NCBI RefSeq assembly: GCF_006539685.1
Contig: NZ_BJNM01000001.1
Coordinates: 62,001-126,000, forward strand
DNA length: 64,000 nt
Source: Gluconobacter oxydans
Lineage (GTDB): Bacteria; Pseudomonadota; Alphaproteobacteria; Acetobacterales; Acetobacteraceae
Direction: 5' to 3'
Numbering within the stretch: position 1 is the first letter of the stretch; every line of letters begins with the position of its first letter. The notes beneath the pieces are model-generated. The model did no database searches, was not told where the DNA came from, and saw only the letters and a list, made by a program, of their open reading frames with translations. Below are positions 52,603-64,000 of the stretch, piece after piece. The position numbers and the translations under genes are program-made.

Positions 52603-54951
52603 TCAGAAGCCGTACGACACGCGGCCGCCAATGAAACGGGGCGGCCCGGGGATGTAGAAATAGGTTGTCGTCGCCATGCCGCCGCTTTCAAAGAAGCTGC
52701 GGTTGAGCAGGTTGGACGCGTAGACCGTGGCTTCCCACTTCCCTGAAGAGGGACGCAGGGTCGCATGGGCGCCGAGCAGGAAATAGGGCGGCAGGCGATA
52801 GAAGCCCGTACCGCCGACCGCGATGGCCTGACTGCCGCGATAGGACCAGTCCGGCCCGATATCGAAGCCCAGCCCCGGCGTCAGCGCCTGCCGCCATTCG
52901 GCCTGACCGTTGAGGGTCAGTTTGGGCTGGCCGTTATCCACACCCGCGAAATTGCTGTTCACGGCCTGCCAGACGCCCGTCTTGGCGTAGGCGGCGTTGG
53001 TGGCGGCACGATTGACGTTCAGGAAATCCTGATAGTTACCACGCTGCCAGCCGATATTCTGCGTCACGAAGACATGGCGCACCGGGTGTAGTTCGATCGT
53101 CCCTTCGAAACCCCAGCTTTCGGATTTGGGGACGTTCGTGATCTCGCTCAGCGGTCCGTAATTCGGGATCAGCACCGTGCCCACGACCTGCTGGTTGTGG
53201 AAGTCGTTGTAAAACGCCGCTCCGTTCAGGCGCAGGACATTGGGGATCGGGTCGCTCTTGACGCCGAGTTCGTAGGTCAGCACCGTCTCAGGGCCGAACG
53301 GGTCGAGCTGGGCCTGGATCTGGGTGTTGTTGGCGCTGAAGCCCCCGGGTTTGAAGCCCTTGCTCATTTTGTAATAGACGAGCGTGCTTTTTGTCGCCTG
53401 CCATGACACGCCAACCTGTCCCGCAAACTGGGCCGAGGCCGTGCTTTCGCCGTGGAAGGCTGTCGTCTTGCCGCCGAAGATTTCCGACGTCAGGCCGGGC
53501 AGGCTGCGGTCGTCGATTTCGTGCAGCAGGCCTGCGAACAGCGTCACGTTATGGGGCAGGCGGTAGCTGATGTGGCCGAATTCGGACGTGCTCTCCTGAT
53601 TCATGGTGAAGGACGTGGCCATCATGTAACCGCGCGCCGCATAGTCGGTATAGTCGAAAAAGAAGCGCTGTTTCATGCGGCTGCGCTGGTAGAACGCCCC
53701 GACCACCCATTGCAGGCGGCTGTCTGGATTGCTGGAGCCCAGACGCAGCTCCTGCGTAAAGGCATTGGCGCTGATGGTGCGGTAGGTGTCGGCTTCGGAG
53801 CGGGACGTGCCGTCCTGATCGGTATATTCGCCCTGCCGCTCGGTCTCGAATGCGGAGACGGAGGTGAGTTTCGCGAACCCGAAATCATGGTCCATGTGCA
53901 GGTCCCAGCCCCAGAACTGGTTGTGTTCGCTGGGTTTGAGGCTTTCCGGACGTCCGATCAGGTTGGCGAATTGCGGACGGACAGACCATTCGGCCTGCGT
54001 CTGGCCAAGCTGGGGCAGGCCGGTCGTGCCGATCAGGCGGTGGACGGCCTGGCTGGTGACGACCTGGCTGTTGTCCTGCACGAAATGGCCGGACAGCAGG
54101 ATCGTGGTGCGGTTGTCATCCGAGTGCCAGCGCAGCTTGCCGCGCAGGGCGTAGGAATCTGCGTCTCCAAGATGGGCGCCGTTCTGCGGGTCGGTCTGCC
54201 AGCCACCGCCCTGCCGGATCTGCCCAGCCAGACGGAAATCCAGCCCCTTGGCGATCGGGCCGGAAATATAGGCCTCGCTGCGGCTGCGGGCATAGGAGGC
54301 GATGTCCTGACTGGCCCCGTAATGCAGGGTGCTGGTCGGATCAGCGGTTCGGAAGCGGACTTCGCCGCCGGTGTCGGACTGTCCATGTGTGGTGCCGACC
54401 GGGCCGGGAGTAACGGTCGCGTCCGCCAGATCGAACATCAAACCGCTCGCCATGGTCGAGAACGCGAACGGCACGTCATCGAAATAGGTCATGACGGTGG
54501 GGATGTTGTTCTGGGTGAAGTCGTTGAAGCCGACGCCACGCAGATAGAAATTGGTCGAGGCCGTGCCGTTGATGGACTGGATCGTCAGATTGGGCGCCAC
54601 GCGTTCCAGATCACGTAGGGTCACGACACCGCGCTGGGTCAGGCGGTCGGCGGTCAGGCGCGTATCGGCGTCCGGGCTGTGCTGTGCTGCAGCAAAGGCG
54701 AAGTCCGTCCGGCGTGCAGTGACGGCGATCGTTTCGGTGTCACGGGCCTGGATGGACTGGGGGGCGGCTTTGCGGGCTACAGGCTTTGCGGCCGGATGAT
54801 GGGCACTGGCGTGATGGGACGCTTCGCTCTTGCCTGCCAGAGGCTTCGCCTTTTCCGGCGAGGCCGCCAGGGCGAGGGACGGGCCAAGGAGACTGGCGCT
54901 GAAGCTGGCACTGAGGCTGGCGCTCAGGAGAAGGGCCTTGCGAAGCGTCAT
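52603..54951 (-). CDS. TonB-dependent receptor
   Basis: The 782-residue outer-membrane receptor starts with a signal peptide (MTLRKALLLSASLSASFSASLLGPSLALA), a His/Lys/Ala-rich linker and a TonB box (ETIAVTA). The plug follows (GVVTLRDLERVAPNLTIQSINGTASTNFYLRGVG). The rest is a beta-barrel ending in Phe (GGRVSYGF). The upstream frame to 55341 is spurious; the ATG at 54951 gives the proper signal peptide with AGGAGA 12 bases before it. It is divergent from a second receptor. The ligand is unknown; it may be a siderophore or a carbohydrate. Confidence 0.9.
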   Translation of the reverse strand: MTLRKALLLSASLSASFSASLLGPSLALAASPEKAKPLAGKSEASHHASAHHPAAKPVARKAAPQSIQARDTETIAVTARRTDFAFAAAQHSPDADTRLTADRLTQRGVVTLRDLERVAPNLTIQSINGTASTNFYLRGVGFNDFTQNNIPTVMTYFDDVPFAFSTMASGLMFDLADATVTPGPVGTTHGQSDTGGEVRFRTADPTSTLHYGASQDIASYARSRSEAYISGPIAKGLDFRLAGQIRQGGGWQTDPQNGAHLGDADSYALRGKLRWHSDDNRTTILLSGHFVQDNSQVVTSQAVHRLIGTTGLPQLGQTQAEWSVRPQFANLIGRPESLKPSEHNQFWGWDLHMDHDFGFAKLTSVSAFETERQGEYTDQDGTSRSEADTYRTISANAFTQELRLGSSNPDSRLQWVVGAFYQRSRMKQRFFFDYTDYAARGYMMATSFTMNQESTSEFGHISYRLPHNVTLFAGLLHEIDDRSLPGLTSEIFGGKTTAFHGESTASAQFAGQVGVSWQATKSTLVYYKMSKGFKPGGFSANNTQIQAQLDPFGPETVLTYELGVKSDPIPNVLRLNGAAFYNDFHNQQVVGTVLIPNYGPLSEITNVPKSESWGFEGTIELHPVRHVFVTQNIGWQRGNYQDFLNVNRAATNAAYAKTGVWQAVNSNFAGVDNGQPKLTLNGQAEWRQALTPGLGFDIGPDWSYRGSQAIAVGGTGFYRLPPYFLLGAHATLRPSSGKWEATVYASNLLNRSFFESGGMATTTYFYIPGPPRFIGGRVSYGF

Positions 54952-55100
54952 GGAAAGGGCGGTTCTCCTGAAGAGGGGGCGTTCCAAGCGGGCAGTCTTC
55001 CTGAAAAAGGACAGCAAAGCCCGAAAAATCACCGTGCTTATATTGTACTCATGCAACAGAGCAAACCCTCGATGCACAATGACGCACAGAGGCGCAGATT

Positions 55101-55129
55101 TTGCTTGAACTGTTATGATATAACATAAT
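55101..55129 (+). promoter_or_regulatory. candidate sigma70 promoter with overlapping Zur box for the TonB receptor at 55187
   Basis: TTGCTT (55101-55106) and CATAAT (55124-55129) are separated by 17 bp. The palindrome TGTTAT-GAT-ATAACA (55111-55125) fills the spacer and touches the -10. It differs at one position from the known Zur consensus core TGTTATA-N-TATAACA. Repression by Zn-Zur at this place would block RNA polymerase. The start codon is 58 bp further on. Confidence 0.7.
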
Positions 55130-55186
55130 AAGCATTCCGCTCTGACAATCTTTCGTCTCTGCCGTATCCCCCTGTCCGGAGGCTTC

Positions 55187-57493
55187 ATGCCGTCTATCGT
55201 GTCTGCCCGTTCCTTTCTTCTGCTTCTGGGCTGCACTACCGCCCTTGCCGATTCCGCGTTCGCACAGTCGGTGACCCCGTCCGTAACGTCTTCCCAGGCG
55301 GCTGCGGCCACCGCTGAAACCCAGACGGATGATGAGTCCACAGCTGCCCGCGCCAGCTTCGGTCATGCCGACGACCAGCATGGTACGACAACGACGGAGA
55401 GCAGTCGCACGGGCGAAGATGACATTACCGTCAACGCCCATCTCGAGCGCGCCCGCGCTGCCCTTCAGCCTTCGACGGGTGCGACGACCTATAATTTCTC
55501 GCGGCAGGCCATCGAGACGAATCCCGGCGGCGACAATGCAGGTCTGAACACGCTGCTGCTTCAGGCTCCGGGTGTGGCGCAGGACAGCTACGGACAGATC
55601 CATATCCGTGGCGACCATAACGAAGTGCAGTTCCGTCTGGATGGTGTGGCGCTTCCGGAAGGCATGAGCGTGTTCGGACAGACGCTCATGACGCGTTTTG
55701 CCCATTCCATGTCGCTGACGACCGGAGCACTGCCCAGTGAGTACGGTTTCCTTCAGGCCGGTGTGATCGATATCAACACCAAGAACGGCTATTCGGATGC
55801 TGGTGGTGACGTTTCGATCTATGGCGGCTCACGTGACTATTTCTTCCCGTCCGCGCAGTTTGGCGGCCATCATGGCAAGTGGGACTGGTTTGCGACGGGT
55901 GATTTCGTTCACAACCGTGTCGGCATCGAAAACACCACGCCGAGCTTCAATGCGATCCACGATCTGACGAACCAGTATCACTTTCTGGGTCATGCCCGTT
56001 ACACGGTGGACGAGAACACGCGGATCAGCCTGACCGCCGGTGTATCCAATGCCGAATACCAGCTTCCCAACAATCCGGGACAGCAGCGCCAGTTCGCCAA
56101 TCCGTCCTTTGCCAATAGTGACCTGTCGCAGAAGCTCTATGGTAATGGCGACAGCTCGAGCCTGACCGAGCATCAGAAGGAAATCACGGATTTCGGCATC
56201 CTGTCCCTGCAGAAGGACATGGGCAAGCTGAGCTTCCAGACCTCCGCCGTGCTGCGTTACAGCTCCCTGCGCTACTCGCCCGATCCGCTGGGAGATCTGG
56301 TCTATAACGGTATTGCCCAGCGCGCGGCGCGTTCGGTCTTCTCGACGGGAACGCAGTCCGACGCCACCTGGCAGGCGGCCAAGGATCATACGGTTCGCTT
56401 CGGCTATCAGATCTATGTGGAACGGAACGTTTCCAAATCGGATTCGACCGTCTATCCGCAGAGCGGCGAGGATTCTGACGGCAATGCAGTCTATTCCGAC
56501 AATCCGCTCACCATCCATGACGGCACGGGCCGGACGGGCTGGATGTACGGCCTTTATGCGCAGGACGAGTGGCGCCCGCTGAAGAACCTGACCATCAATT
56601 ACGGTCTGCGGTTTGACGGTGTGGATGAATATACCCATGCCAAGCAGGTCAGTCCGCGTCTGAACATTGTCTACAAGCCCTGGCACGGTGGCACGTTCCA
56701 TGCGGGATATTCGCGTTATTTCACGCCGCCGCCGTTCGAACTCGTGGGCGGTACGTCGCTCAACAAGTTCGCCAATACGTCAGCGGCTCCTGGGACGTTC
56801 CTGAACAGCAACGTGAAGGCCGAGCGCGATCATTACTTCGACGCCGGCTTCTCGCAGACGATCCTGCCGGGCTGGCATGCGTCCTTCGATGCGTATGTGA
56901 AGCTCGCCAAGAACATGATCGACGAAGGGCAGTTCGGCTCCCCGGTCATCCTGTCGGCGTTCAACTACCGTCGCGGTCAGGTTCATGGTTATGAATTCGC
57001 CACGGACTACACCCGCGGCGCCTTCAGCGTGTACGGCAATTTTTCCTGGTCGCGCGCCATCGGCAAGGACATCACCACGGCGCAGTGGAACTTCGATCCC
57101 GACGATCTGGCTTATACCAGCAAGCACTGGATCCATCTGGATCATGACCAGCGCTGGACGGCGTCTGCCGGCGCAAGCTACTCGTTCTTCCACAGAACCG
57201 GCCATCCGCTGCGCCTGTCTGCCACGATGGTCTATGGCAGCGGTCTGCGGGCCGATGGCGCGACGCCGAACGGGGATTCCGTGCCTCAGTATGCGACGTT
57301 CAACCTGTCGCTGGTCCAGTCCTTCAAGGATCTGTTCCAGGTGCCGTTCCTCAAGCGCACACAGCTGCGTCTGGACGTGACCAACCTGTTCGACCGGACC
57401 TATCTGCTGCGTGACGGCAGCGGCATCGGTGTGGGTGCGCCGCAGTATGGTCTGCGCCGGACGATCCTCACCGGTATTGACCAGCGTTTCTGA
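55187..57493 (+). CDS. TonB-dependent receptor, possibly zinc uptake (ZnuD-like role)
   Basis: The 768-residue outer-membrane receptor has a signal peptide (SFLLLLGCTTALADSAFA) and an acidic, Thr-rich linker with His residues (GHADDQHG). The plug contains LLLQAPGVAQDSYGQIHIRGDHNEVQFRLDGVALPEG, and the barrel ends in Phe (TILTGIDQRF). The ATG follows CCGGAGGCTTC. A Zur-box-like palindrome overlaps its promoter, so zinc starvation may induce it. That makes zinc the best-supported ligand, by regulation rather than by protein motif. It is divergent from the other receptor. Confidence 0.85.
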   Translation: MPSIVSARSFLLLLGCTTALADSAFAQSVTPSVTSSQAAAATAETQTDDESTAARASFGHADDQHGTTTTESSRTGEDDITVNAHLERARAALQPSTGATTYNFSRQAIETNPGGDNAGLNTLLLQAPGVAQDSYGQIHIRGDHNEVQFRLDGVALPEGMSVFGQTLMTRFAHSMSLTTGALPSEYGFLQAGVIDINTKNGYSDAGGDVSIYGGSRDYFFPSAQFGGHHGKWDWFATGDFVHNRVGIENTTPSFNAIHDLTNQYHFLGHARYTVDENTRISLTAGVSNAEYQLPNNPGQQRQFANPSFANSDLSQKLYGNGDSSSLTEHQKEITDFGILSLQKDMGKLSFQTSAVLRYSSLRYSPDPLGDLVYNGIAQRAARSVFSTGTQSDATWQAAKDHTVRFGYQIYVERNVSKSDSTVYPQSGEDSDGNAVYSDNPLTIHDGTGRTGWMYGLYAQDEWRPLKNLTINYGLRFDGVDEYTHAKQVSPRLNIVYKPWHGGTFHAGYSRYFTPPPFELVGGTSLNKFANTSAAPGTFLNSNVKAERDHYFDAGFSQTILPGWHASFDAYVKLAKNMIDEGQFGSPVILSAFNYRRGQVHGYEFATDYTRGAFSVYGNFSWSRAIGKDITTAQWNFDPDDLAYTSKHWIHLDHDQRWTASAGASYSFFHRTGHPLRLSATMVYGSGLRADGATPNGDSVPQYATFNLSLVQSFKDLFQVPFLKRTQLRLDVTNLFDRTYLLRDGSGIGVGAPQYGLRRTILTGIDQRF

Positions 57494-60424: not shown

Positions 60425-61723
60425 ATGGCATTTCATTTCATTTCCGTTGCGCGGTGTCTGGGGCTGCGGCGTGTCCGTCTGGCGCGTGTCTTCGGAATCG
60501 TGGTGGTGGGATGGATCGCGGGGGTGGGGCAGACTTTCGCCGCAGGGGGAATGGTGGCTCCGCTATCTGTTCATGATGCAATCGCCGCTGCCTGGAAGAT
60601 CGATCCCGTGCGTGCAGAGCTTGAGACCAATCAGGATTCCGCCGATGTGCGGGCGAAGGCAGCGCAGTCCTGGTTTGCGGGCGGCCCGACGCTGACGGGC
60701 GATTACTATGATGACCGCATCAGCGGTTCCAATCATGGCTATATCACCTGGCAGGGCGGGGTTTCGGTGCCGCTGTGGCTGCCAGGGCAGGGGACAGCGA
60801 CCGAGAACGTGGCCAAGGCCGAGGCGAAGACTGCAACCGTTCGTCTTGATGTAGAGCGGATGTCGGTTGCGGTACGGGTCGTGGATGCGGCGGGGGCTGC
60901 GATCATGGCCATGCGTCGGCAGACGGCGGCGTTGGCGACGGTGGCCGCATTGCGGCGGATCGAAGCGGATGTGCAGCGGGCCGGGCATGCCGGGGAAATT
61001 GCGGTGTCGGACCAGCAGGCCGTGGAGGCGCAACTGGCGCAGGCCCGCAGCGAAGCTGACATGGCGGCCGAGGAAATCGAGACCACGGCGAGTCAGTTGC
61101 GGACGCTGACGGGGCTGCCAGGGGTGCCGGATATCACGCAGGCGGATGAGCACTGGCTGGCGCTGACGCGGGCCAATGATGCGCGCTGGGTCGAGGACAT
61201 TGACCCCCGGGTGCGGGCGACGCATCAGGCGGTGATTGCGGCGCAGAACCAGATGAAGCTGGTGCGAAAGAGCTTCATGCCCAATCCGGAAATTGGCGTT
61301 GATGCGATCGATCAGGGGCAGTATCAGAGCCCCTGGGATACACAGGTAGGGGTTAATCTGCGGGTGCCGCTGCCCAGTGCGGTGACGAATACGCCGCAGG
61401 AATCCGCCGCCCGCGACCGGATGGCAGCGGCGACGCGACAGGAAATCGAGGCGCGGCGGGCCGTGCGCAACGAGATGGCGCAGGTGCGGGCGCATCTGGT
61501 GGCGGCGACGGGATCGTTGTCGAATTCGCGGGTCGAGGCGAGTTCCATGCTGCGCCGGGCGGATGGGATGGAGCGGTCCTGGCGGGTGGGTGAGACACCG
61601 CTGATCGAGGCTCTGCGGGCGCGGATGGATGCGTATCGGGCGCTGCTGGATCTGAACCGTGCGGAGATTGCCTGGCATGCGGCGATCATCCGGATGGGTA
61701 TTGCGACGGGGACCATTCCATGA
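60425..61723 (+). CDS. TolC/CzcC-type outer-membrane efflux protein
   Basis: The 432-residue protein is the outer-membrane factor of a heavy-metal RND system. It has an N-terminal signal-like stretch ([20 protein letters not shown]) and two long alpha-helical repeats rich in Ala/Gln/Glu ([12 protein letters not shown] and [20 protein letters not shown]). The [11 protein letters not shown] and VPLP turns between the barrel strands are those of the CzcC/CusC family. The gene leads a three-gene operon and is divergent from the PiuC-type gene; its stop overlaps the adaptor gene by four bases. Confidence 0.85.
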
Positions 61724-62883
61724 GCCGGTTTGTGCGTTTTCTGGTCTGTGGGGTGGCGCTGTGTGCTCTGTCGCGTGCGCGGGCAGCGGATGCGCCGGGC
61801 TGGATGCAGCCGCTGACGCTTGGGGCCGAGGCGCGGGACGGCGAGCATCTCCAGACCGCATTGGTGCGGCAGGGGACGCTGCATGACACGGTATCGGCAC
61901 TGGCGCGGGTGAGCGCGGATCTGTCGCGGACGGTCGTGATCCGCACGAGCGGGGACGGGAAAGTCACGGCGGTGCGGGTGACACCGGGGCAGACTGTGGT
62001 GCCCGGGCAGGCGCTCATTGATTACACGGATCATTCCCTTCACGTGCTGCATCTTCAGCTTGAGCAGGACGAGGCGGCTCTGGCCTCGGCGAAGGCGACG
62101 CTGGGGGAGGCCGAACTGTCGTACCGGCGCGGGCAGTCGCTGGTGGGCAGTACGGTATCGGCCGGGGAAGTAAGGCGGCGTCAGGCGGCGGTGCAGCAGG
62201 CGCGTAGTACGGTCGTGGCGCGGGAAGCAGATATCGGGCTGATCCAGCATCGGCTGACGGAGGAGTTCACCTCCGTGACGGAAAAGATTGTGCAGGATGA
62301 GGCGTCCACGCTGATTTCGCCGGTGCGGGGTGTCGTGCAGTCCATTCAGACCTCCGTGGCGTCGGATGTGACGCCGGGGCAGCCTGTGGCGACGGTCGTG
62401 GATCTGTCGGGCGTATGGATTGTCGCGGATCTGCGGCCGGATGAGGTGTCGCGGCTGGTGCCCGGTGGCGTTGTGACGGTTCGTCCGTCGGGGAATGCGC
62501 GGGCCGAGCCGTTCCGGGCGAAGATTACGACGATTGATGGTGTGGCCGATCCGGTGACGGGGCTGGTGCGGGTGGTGTGTGTCGTGGACCGGCCGGTGGC
62601 GTTCCTGCGGCCGGGGATCATGCTGGATGCGGCGCTTGAAACCAGCGAGGCCGTGGACGGCATGATCGTGCCATCAAATGCGGTGCAGACGATCGAGGGG
62701 CATGACCTTGTCTATGTGCAGACGGCCGAAGGGCAGTATGCGCCGCGCGAGGTCCGGGTGCGGCTGGCGACGGATGAGAGTGTCGTCGTGCAGGGCAATC
62801 TGAAGGCGGGAGATGCTGTGGTGACGGAGGGCAGTTTTGCCCTGAAATCCATGTCGCTCGTCAGCGGGCTGGATACGGACTGA
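61720..62883 (+). CDS. RND efflux periplasmic adaptor (HlyD/CusB family)
   Basis: The 387-residue membrane-fusion protein has a signal peptide (FLVCGVALCALSRARAADA), a beta-barrel/lipoyl core (VIRTSGDGKVTAVRVTPGQTVVPGQALIDYT and LISPVRGVVQSIQTSVASDVTPGQPVATVVDLSGVWIVADL) and a coiled-coil hairpin between (about 105-180). The end has the membrane-proximal domain (VRLATDESVVVQGNLKAGDAVVTEGSFALKS). It links the TolC-type protein to the RND pump. Its ATG overlaps the preceding stop. Confidence 0.9.
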   Translation: MSRFVRFLVCGVALCALSRARAADAPGWMQPLTLGAEARDGEHLQTALVRQGTLHDTVSALARVSADLSRTVVIRTSGDGKVTAVRVTPGQTVVPGQALIDYTDHSLHVLHLQLEQDEAALASAKATLGEAELSYRRGQSLVGSTVSAGEVRRRQAAVQQARSTVVAREADIGLIQHRLTEEFTSVTEKIVQDEASTLISPVRGVVQSIQTSVASDVTPGQPVATVVDLSGVWIVADLRPDEVSRLVPGGVVTVRPSGNARAEPFRAKITTIDGVADPVTGLVRVVCVVDRPVAFLRPGIMLDAALETSEAVDGMIVPSNAVQTIEGHDLVYVQTAEGQYAPREVRVRLATDESVVVQGNLKAGDAVVTEGSFALKSMSLVSGLDTD

Positions 62884-62892
62884 CCGGGTTTC

Positions 62893-64000
62893 ATGCTGCA
62901 TTTTTTCCAGTCCAACCGTTTTGTCCTGCTGGGTCTGCTTGTTGCGCTGATGATCGGCGGGGTGATGACCGTGCCGGGACTGCCGGTCGAGCCGGTGCCG
63001 GATATTTCGCCCAAGCAGGTCATGGTTTCGGTGACTGCGCCGGGGCTGGCGACGGAAGAAGTCGAGAAGCTTATCACCTTTCCGGTTGAGGCGAGCCTGA
63101 CGGGGATTCCGGGTGTGACGGACCTGCGCTCCGTGTCGCGGACTGGGGTGTCGGCGGTTTATCTGCAGTTCGATGACGCGACGGATATCGATCTGGACCG
63201 GACGCGGGTTTCGGAGCGGTTGCAGGCGGCACGGGACAGCATCACCATGCCGGGTGTGAGCGTCTCGATGGGGCCGCTGGCGACGGGCATGGGCGAGATC
63301 ATGCAGTTGCAGATCCGTGGCGCCGGGCTCTCGCTGATGGAGCTGAACCGGCTCATGACCTGGACGGTCGTGCCGCAGTTGCGGCTGGTGCCGGGCGTTG
63401 TGGACGTCAACGTCAATGGCGGATCGGTCGAGACGTATCAGGTGGCGGTTGATCCGGCGCGGATGCGGACGTTCGGGGTTTCGATCAGCGAGATCGTGCA
63501 GGCTGTCGATACGAACAATGCGTCGTCCGGTGGCGGCTGGATTGCGCATCATGCCGAGCAGAACGTGGTTGTGGGCCGGGCGCTGGTAGGCAGTCTGGCG
63601 GATTTTGGCGCCATTCCCGTGAAGCTGGGAGCGGGCGGCCATGTGATCCGGCTGCGGGACATGGGGGTTGTGTCCGCCGGGCCGAGGACGCGGCTTGGGG
63701 CCGTGACGCGGGACGGGCAGGGTGAGGTGGTCATTGGCGTCGTGATGATGCAGACCGGGGCCAGCTCGAATGCGACGCTGGGTGCGATCGGGCGGGCTTT
63801 GCCGGCGATCCGGCAGTCCCTGCCGTCGGGTGTGACGCTGGAGCCTTATTACAGCCGGGCGACCCTGACGGGGCAGACCATCCATACGGTGAAGGAAAAC
63901 CTGCTGATCGGCGCGGGGCTGGTGCTGTTCGTGCTTGTCGTCGTGCTGGGGGACTGGCGGGCGGCGCTGGTGATCGTATCGGTCATTCCGGCGGCTCTGG
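62893..64000 (+). CDS. heavy-metal RND efflux pump CusA/CzcA family, partial
   Basis: The ATG at 62893 begins a frame that stays open to the window edge (369 codons seen of roughly 1030 expected). The N-terminus (MLHFFQSNRFVLLGLLVALM) is the first membrane helix, followed by PVEPVPDISPKQVMVSV, TEEVEKLITFPVEASLTGIPGVTDLRSVSRTG and TIHTVKENLLIGAGLVLFVLVVVLGDWRAALVI at the second helix. These are HME-RND features. It starts 10 bp after the adaptor gene. The metal-selective transmembrane residues lie beyond the edge, so copper, zinc or other specificity cannot be read here. Confidence 0.93.
   Translation, partial: MLHFFQSNRFVLLGLLVALMIGGVMTVPGLPVEPVPDISPKQVMVSVTAPGLATEEVEKLITFPVEASLTGIPGVTDLRSVSRTGVSAVYLQFDDATDIDLDRTRVSERLQAARDSITMPGVSVSMGPLATGMGEIMQLQIRGAGLSLMELNRLMTWTVVPQLRLVPGVVDVNVNGGSVETYQVAVDPARMRTFGVSISEIVQAVDTNNASSGGGWIAHHAEQNVVVGRALVGSLADFGAIPVKLGAGGHVIRLRDMGVVSAGPRTRLGAVTRDGQGEVVIGVVMMQTGASSNATLGAIGRALPAIRQSLPSGVTLEPYYSRATLTGQTIHTVKENLLIGAGLVLFVLVVVLGDWRAALVIVSVIPAAL

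Follow-up and report, generated by a model that had tools for sequence, protein, structure and literature searches.

A conserved predicted Zur operator upstream of a TonB-dependent receptor gene in Gluconobacter oxydans

The stretch of G. oxydans DNA analysed here, referred to below as the window, is 64,000 nucleotides long and carries two divergent genes for TonB-dependent receptors. The following features lie at and between these genes.

52603-54951, minus strand: second, divergent TonB-dependent receptor, whose best NCBIfam match is a siderophore-receptor model, below its cut-off
55101-55129, plus strand: possible promoter TTGCTT-17-CATAAT, weak (8 of 12 sigma-70 consensus positions) and overlapped by the box
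55112-55129, no strand assigned: predicted Zur box, the 18-base near-palindrome GTTATGATATAACATAAT, overlapping a 15-mer at 55111-55125
55177-55181, plus strand: GGAGG, likely ribosome-binding site, from the sequence
55187-57493, plus strand: TonB-dependent outer-membrane receptor of 768 amino acids with plug, beta-barrel and a TonB-box-like EDDITVNA

Further downstream (60425-64000; L025:8894-11971), the window encodes an outer-membrane efflux protein, an RND periplasmic adaptor, whose best metal-efflux match is CzcB-like and below cut-off, and an RND pump. No Zur box was found in the window for these efflux genes at up to 5 mismatches to the 18-mer. A receptor paralogous to the one at 55187 is encoded about 9.6 kb past the window end (G000:C1:135564-137588; L192, L272).

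The preliminary description of this locus had drawn attention to the 15-base palindrome TGTTATGATATAACA as one base off the Zur core TGTTATA-N-TATAACA. Its coordinates, 55111-55125, are exact, the single difference falls at position 7, and the palindrome lies 61 bases 5' of the receptor ATG at 55187, from which a frame of 768 codons, preceded by GGAGG, runs. The 18-mer GTTATGATATAACATAAT describes the site better than the 15-mer and consists of two overlapping GTTA-N5-TAAC boxes, one perfect and the second weaker. The elements TTGCTT (55101-55106) and CATAAT (55124-55129), which are separated by a 17-base spacer, had likewise been placed correctly on either side of the box, but their reading as a promoter is weak, as only 8 of 12 consensus positions agree and a promoter scan of 54900-55260 returned 0 sites.

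Within the 64-kb window, TGTTATN3ATAACA occurred twice at up to 2 mismatches against 0.24 expected from shuffling, one match being perfect and the other the same site read in an overlapping register. With up to 5 mismatches allowed, the 18-mer has just three positions in the window, namely 34738, 55107 (the overlapping register) and 55112. The searches were extended to the whole genome (2.7 Mb in 107 contigs), where the 15-mer pattern gave 32 matches at up to 2 mismatches versus 13 for a reversed control, and the even-centred 18-mer GTTATGTTATAACATAAC gave 4 matches at up to 3 mismatches versus 0. The exact 13-mer GTTA-N5-TAAC was found 9 times versus 8 for its reversed control, therefore this short motif is uninformative alone. 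When 17 genomes were scanned with the 18-mer, matches were present in 14 and absent from 3, and the control equalled the real count in G054, G581 and G201.

The four genomic 18-mer sites with up to 3 mismatches belong to the receptor, the second zur gene with folE, the ZigA chaperone and an S46 peptidase. Those outside the window, together with the peptidase gene, are listed here.

C35:2959: 18-mer site between the ZigA metallochaperone gene (617 bits, cut-off 600) and a DUF1826 gene
C49:6304: 18-mer site between the DUF1826-zur-thrS unit and folE
C49:2926: 18-mer site 5' of the S46 peptidase gene, 2 mismatches
L021:698-2785: S46 dipeptidyl-peptidase gene

At znuA (contig C17), the box GTTACTTTATAAC starts 42 bases 5' of the ATG. 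In a survey that matched 21 genomes and read 20 loci, exact GTTA-N5-TAAC lay 5' of znuA in 20/20 same-genus loci, own locus included, with three different middles. A genome scan for the motif at znuABC or zur had been proposed together with the palindrome, and it bore the proposal out, with the 13-mer at znuA and the 18-mer at the second zur/folE and at zigA. The core zur gene C4:87917 was absent from both the 18-mer matches (up to 3 mismatches) and the exact 13-mer matches. An EamA transporter gene at C17:23792, preceded by a site with 4 mismatches, was considered as a lead to a metallophore exporter and rejected, as a clear box was present in 0/29 other loci (5 mismatches at best, in L073, and 6 or more in the rest). 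Separately, an EamA-family transporter adjoins the receptor in four relatives, namely G158 (L057), G170 (L058), G118 and G032; its own-genome homologue (L022:15858-16928) has a weak box that is not conserved.

The box is conserved together with the receptor. In 78 of 80 named loci from acetic acid bacteria, the receptor was preceded by the 18-mer (up to 6 mismatches, within 350 bases), and in the two loci lacking it the DNA extends just 100 and 2 bases upstream. With the limit set at 4 mismatches, the count was 64/80. Of 1406 control segments of the same size, 0 reached 4 mismatches and 42 reached 6, and 14 of the 78 sites are individually weaker because they lie at 5 or 6 mismatches, the level attained by those 42 controls. 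Of 30 family loci, 29, the window's own copy included, had a match to the 18-mer with no more than 6 mismatches in the 400 bases upstream, and one locus of this set (L038) ends before the upstream region. The sites from the 80 named loci (2 skipped, 78 sites thinned to 53 non-redundant ones) contained 1.33 bits of information per box column versus 0.18 in each flank. The left receptor neighbours the right one in 18 of the 80 loci, all from Gluconobacter, a count that includes some loci with short flanks; therefore the box follows the right-hand gene and the left receptor is not its conserved target. At the class level, 8 of 18 homologues from other genomes had a box at up to 5 mismatches (L176-L180, L182, L189 and L190), and those outside the family (L177-L180, L182, L189 and L190) come from four families. 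No clear box was seen before the other 10 (L175, L181, L183-L188, L191 and L193), nor before the paralogous receptor of the same genome (L192, 40% identical).

The Zur homologue presupposed by the preliminary description is present in the genome. Three Fur-family proteins were found, of which two match Zur best, both below the curated cut-off of 167 bits of the NCBIfam Zur model. The protein encoded at C4:87917 scores 100 bits and matches PDB chains 7dh7 (4e-27) and 4mtd (2e-20), and the one at C49:5072-5644 scores 71.8 bits with the same two chains, 7dh7 and 4mtd, as its best. The third protein (L028) looks like Fur/Irr. The C4 and C49 proteins are 28% identical to each other, and of seven family proteins that were compared, six cluster with the C4 protein. 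Genomes G008, G048 and G079, whose receptors are boxed, have a single Zur match each, which is of the C4 type, thus the core Zur is the likelier regulator of the receptor over the plasmid-type protein. A census of 200 family genomes counted 54 with both Zur (E up to 1e-12) and the receptor, 25 with the receptor only, 78 with Zur only and 43 with neither, and no co-variation was detected (p = 0.65) in what is a weak test, the query being the divergent plasmid Zur. In G181, G049 and G064, a receptor homologue has a zur-type gene no more than about 2 kb away. In G181 this gene is directly upstream of the homologue in the same direction, with a box in front, and in G064 the two are separated by a TonB gene (PF03544). 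In one relative (L270:1865-5388), a receptor homologue, a divergent TonB gene and a zur-type gene are adjacent.

The contig encoding the second Zur (L021, C49:1-8775) is 99.9% identical to a G. oxydans plasmid. It is matched in 8 plasmid records, 7 of them from Gluconobacter or Acetobacter, and the matching plasmids include NZ_CP102495.1, NZ_CP014690.1, NZ_CP068420.1 and NZ_CP023190.1. The two records that were examined have a transcriptional repressor, folE, hisI and zigA annotated. The set that accompanies the second Zur on the C49 contig and on plasmids comprises DUF1826, thrS, folE, hisI, zigA and the S46 peptidase, part of the contig being found on Acetobacter plasmids, and Zur-like boxes are present on the C49 contig itself. 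The annotation of the near-identical G. oxydans plasmid splits the S46 peptidase gene into three pieces.

The receptor has copies of 98-99% identity in Gluconobacter records, for example those of G. sphaericus and G. potus. Its sequence reaches the Pfam barrel model (102 bits) and does not reach the plug model; EDDITVNA was recognized by eye as resembling a TonB box, and the plug contains HIRGDHNE. A structural model built from 59 sequences (pLDDT 81.6), for which an earlier one from 12 sequences (pLDDT 54.3) was set aside, has the predicted fold of a TonB-dependent receptor. Its residues 53-768 align with BtuB (2guf) over 528 residues with a Z score of 33.5 and an rmsd of 3.0 A in VIA-align, and many other chains give values near those of BtuB, the best structural neighbours being receptors for cobalamin, siderophores and other cargos. 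ZnuD was absent from the best 50 fold matches in each of two structure comparisons, which proves nothing. A profile search of solved chains at E up to 1 returned the colicin I receptor as its sole, weak match over 76 positions, and no ZnuD chain was among the matches. Residues D143, H242, H265, H549 and H650 are commoner in boxed (n=48) than in unboxed (n=10) homologues, a comparison confounded by kinship, and H144 has nearly the same frequency in both; L175 was placed in neither group and the frameshifted L123 was left out of the alignment (A2).

The preliminary description had read the site as a Zur box, and this reading is supported by the presence of Zur homologues, the enrichment of the motif at zinc genes and the retention of the box with the receptor in 78 of 80 loci. 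From these computed features we infer Zur binding, repression of the receptor, the identity of the acting Zur and the cargo. We hold with considerable confidence that the site is a Zur operator through which zinc-bound Zur represses the receptor gene, that zinc shortage relieves this repression, and that the receptor would then import zinc, free or chelated; the receptor is very probably switched on at zinc shortage. In the proposed mechanism, Zur loaded with zinc, most likely the core protein (G000:C4:87917), would occupy the box and block transcription of the receptor gene. As zinc falls, Zur would leave the box and the receptor would be made. Powered by TonB, the receptor would carry free or chelated zinc into the periplasm, where ZnuA, itself under a Zur box, would pass it on to the ZnuABC importer. 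Regulation is the sole basis on which zinc, free or chelated, is proposed as the cargo. Acetic acid bacteria are used to produce vinegar, the vitamin C precursor and cellulose. The analysis provides a working Zur motif for this group and a testable function for an otherwise generic receptor, and it raises the prospect that a plasmid-borne second Zur may share operators with the chromosome.

Other explanations of the site were weighed against this one. That the palindrome arose by chance in an AT-rich intergenic stretch is hardly credible given its retention in 78 of 80 loci and an information content of 1.33 versus 0.18 bits, even though it was first spotted by eye in a single sequence and GTTA-N5-TAAC alone is unenriched in the genome. 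Fur-family boxes resemble one another and the genome encodes the Fur/Irr-like protein L028, which would favour an iron or manganese regulator of this family acting at the box instead of Zur. The same kind of box is, however, found at znuA in 20/20 loci and beside the second zur and zigA, and the identical 15-mer lies inside a predicted Zur site of Caulobacter crescentus (PMC4176598), therefore we regard such a regulator as very improbable. The box could also serve the divergent left receptor (52603-54951), or both receptors, as it lies 160 bases from the left ATG in the 235-base intergenic stretch between them, and in C. crescentus the divergent genes znuK and znuG are both listed with the one site (PMC4176598). 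We consider this improbable, since the left gene adjoins in just 18 of the 80 loci and the box stays with the right gene.

A different possibility accepts the Zur operator but assigns the receptor a cargo other than zinc, either another metal chelate or a zinc-sparing nutrient. The closest structural neighbours of the model, which transport cobalamin, siderophores or other cargos, would fit this, as would the boxed genes that encode enzymes and the S46 peptidase besides importers. On the other hand, the Zur-controlled receptors with a tested role, ZnuK and ZnuL, support growth without zinc (PMC4176598). Boxed homologues often have D143-H144 in the plug and several of the histidines, yet H144 occurs almost as often in unboxed homologues. 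We judge a non-zinc cargo unlikely, though the least unlikely of these alternatives, and retain zinc import under Zur control as the preferred explanation.

Switches of this type have been described before in related bacteria. In C. crescentus, repression of znuK, znuL and znuM by zinc and Zur was demonstrated with lacZ fusions and a zur mutant, and a predicted Zur site lies between znuK (CC1517) and znuGHI (PMC4176598). The locus described here resembles these three genes in placing a TonB-dependent receptor behind a Zur box in an alphaproteobacterium, and the predicted znuK/znuG site, as given there, contains the window's 15-mer TGTTATGATATAACA letter for letter (PMC4176598). It differs in its neighbour: in C. 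crescentus, znuK and an ABC importer have one site in common (PMC4176598), whereas the present receptor adjoins another receptor. The exact znuK site was found twice in 385 class genomes, neither time beside a receptor. ZnuD of Neisseria meningitidis is likewise TonB-dependent, binds zinc with a plug Asp-His pair among the ligands and has a described His-rich loop (PMC4557270). Its pair is D99-H100 (PMC4557270) and the one here is D143-H144; that the two are equivalent is our guess. Among the titles listed in searches of the open literature, none dealt with Zur or with the uptake of zinc by acetic acid bacteria, which is no proof of absence, and a Gluconobacter screen names a TonB-dependent receptor, GO_19, without the words zinc or zur in its accessible text (PMC12041372). 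Members of Zur regulons listed in a review include COG0523 chaperones, a second threonyl-tRNA synthetase, GTP cyclohydrolases and znuABC (PMC6103462), and the legend of a figure showing COG0523 clusters under Zur control names DUF1826 (PMC2770081). The genes found here have in common with the reviewed regulons COG0523/ZigA, threonyl-tRNA synthetase, GTP cyclohydrolase, DUF1826, znuABC, an outer-membrane receptor and a self-controlled zur (PMC6103462, PMC2770081); the cyclohydrolase is folE here and folE2 in the review (PMC6103462). Unlike in the reviewed regulons, some of these genes are located, together with a second Zur of their own, on a contig nearly identical to a plasmid. We tentatively suggest, as a possibility short of an even chance, that a receptor lineage of acetic acid bacteria which has no sequence match to solved ZnuD chains is linked to Zur in several families of Alphaproteobacteria, and that Gluconobacter and Acetobacter plasmids bring in a second Zur with zinc-starvation enzymes reading the same operator, so that the plasmid would tap into the chromosomal response to zinc starvation, the receptor included, and may retune it.
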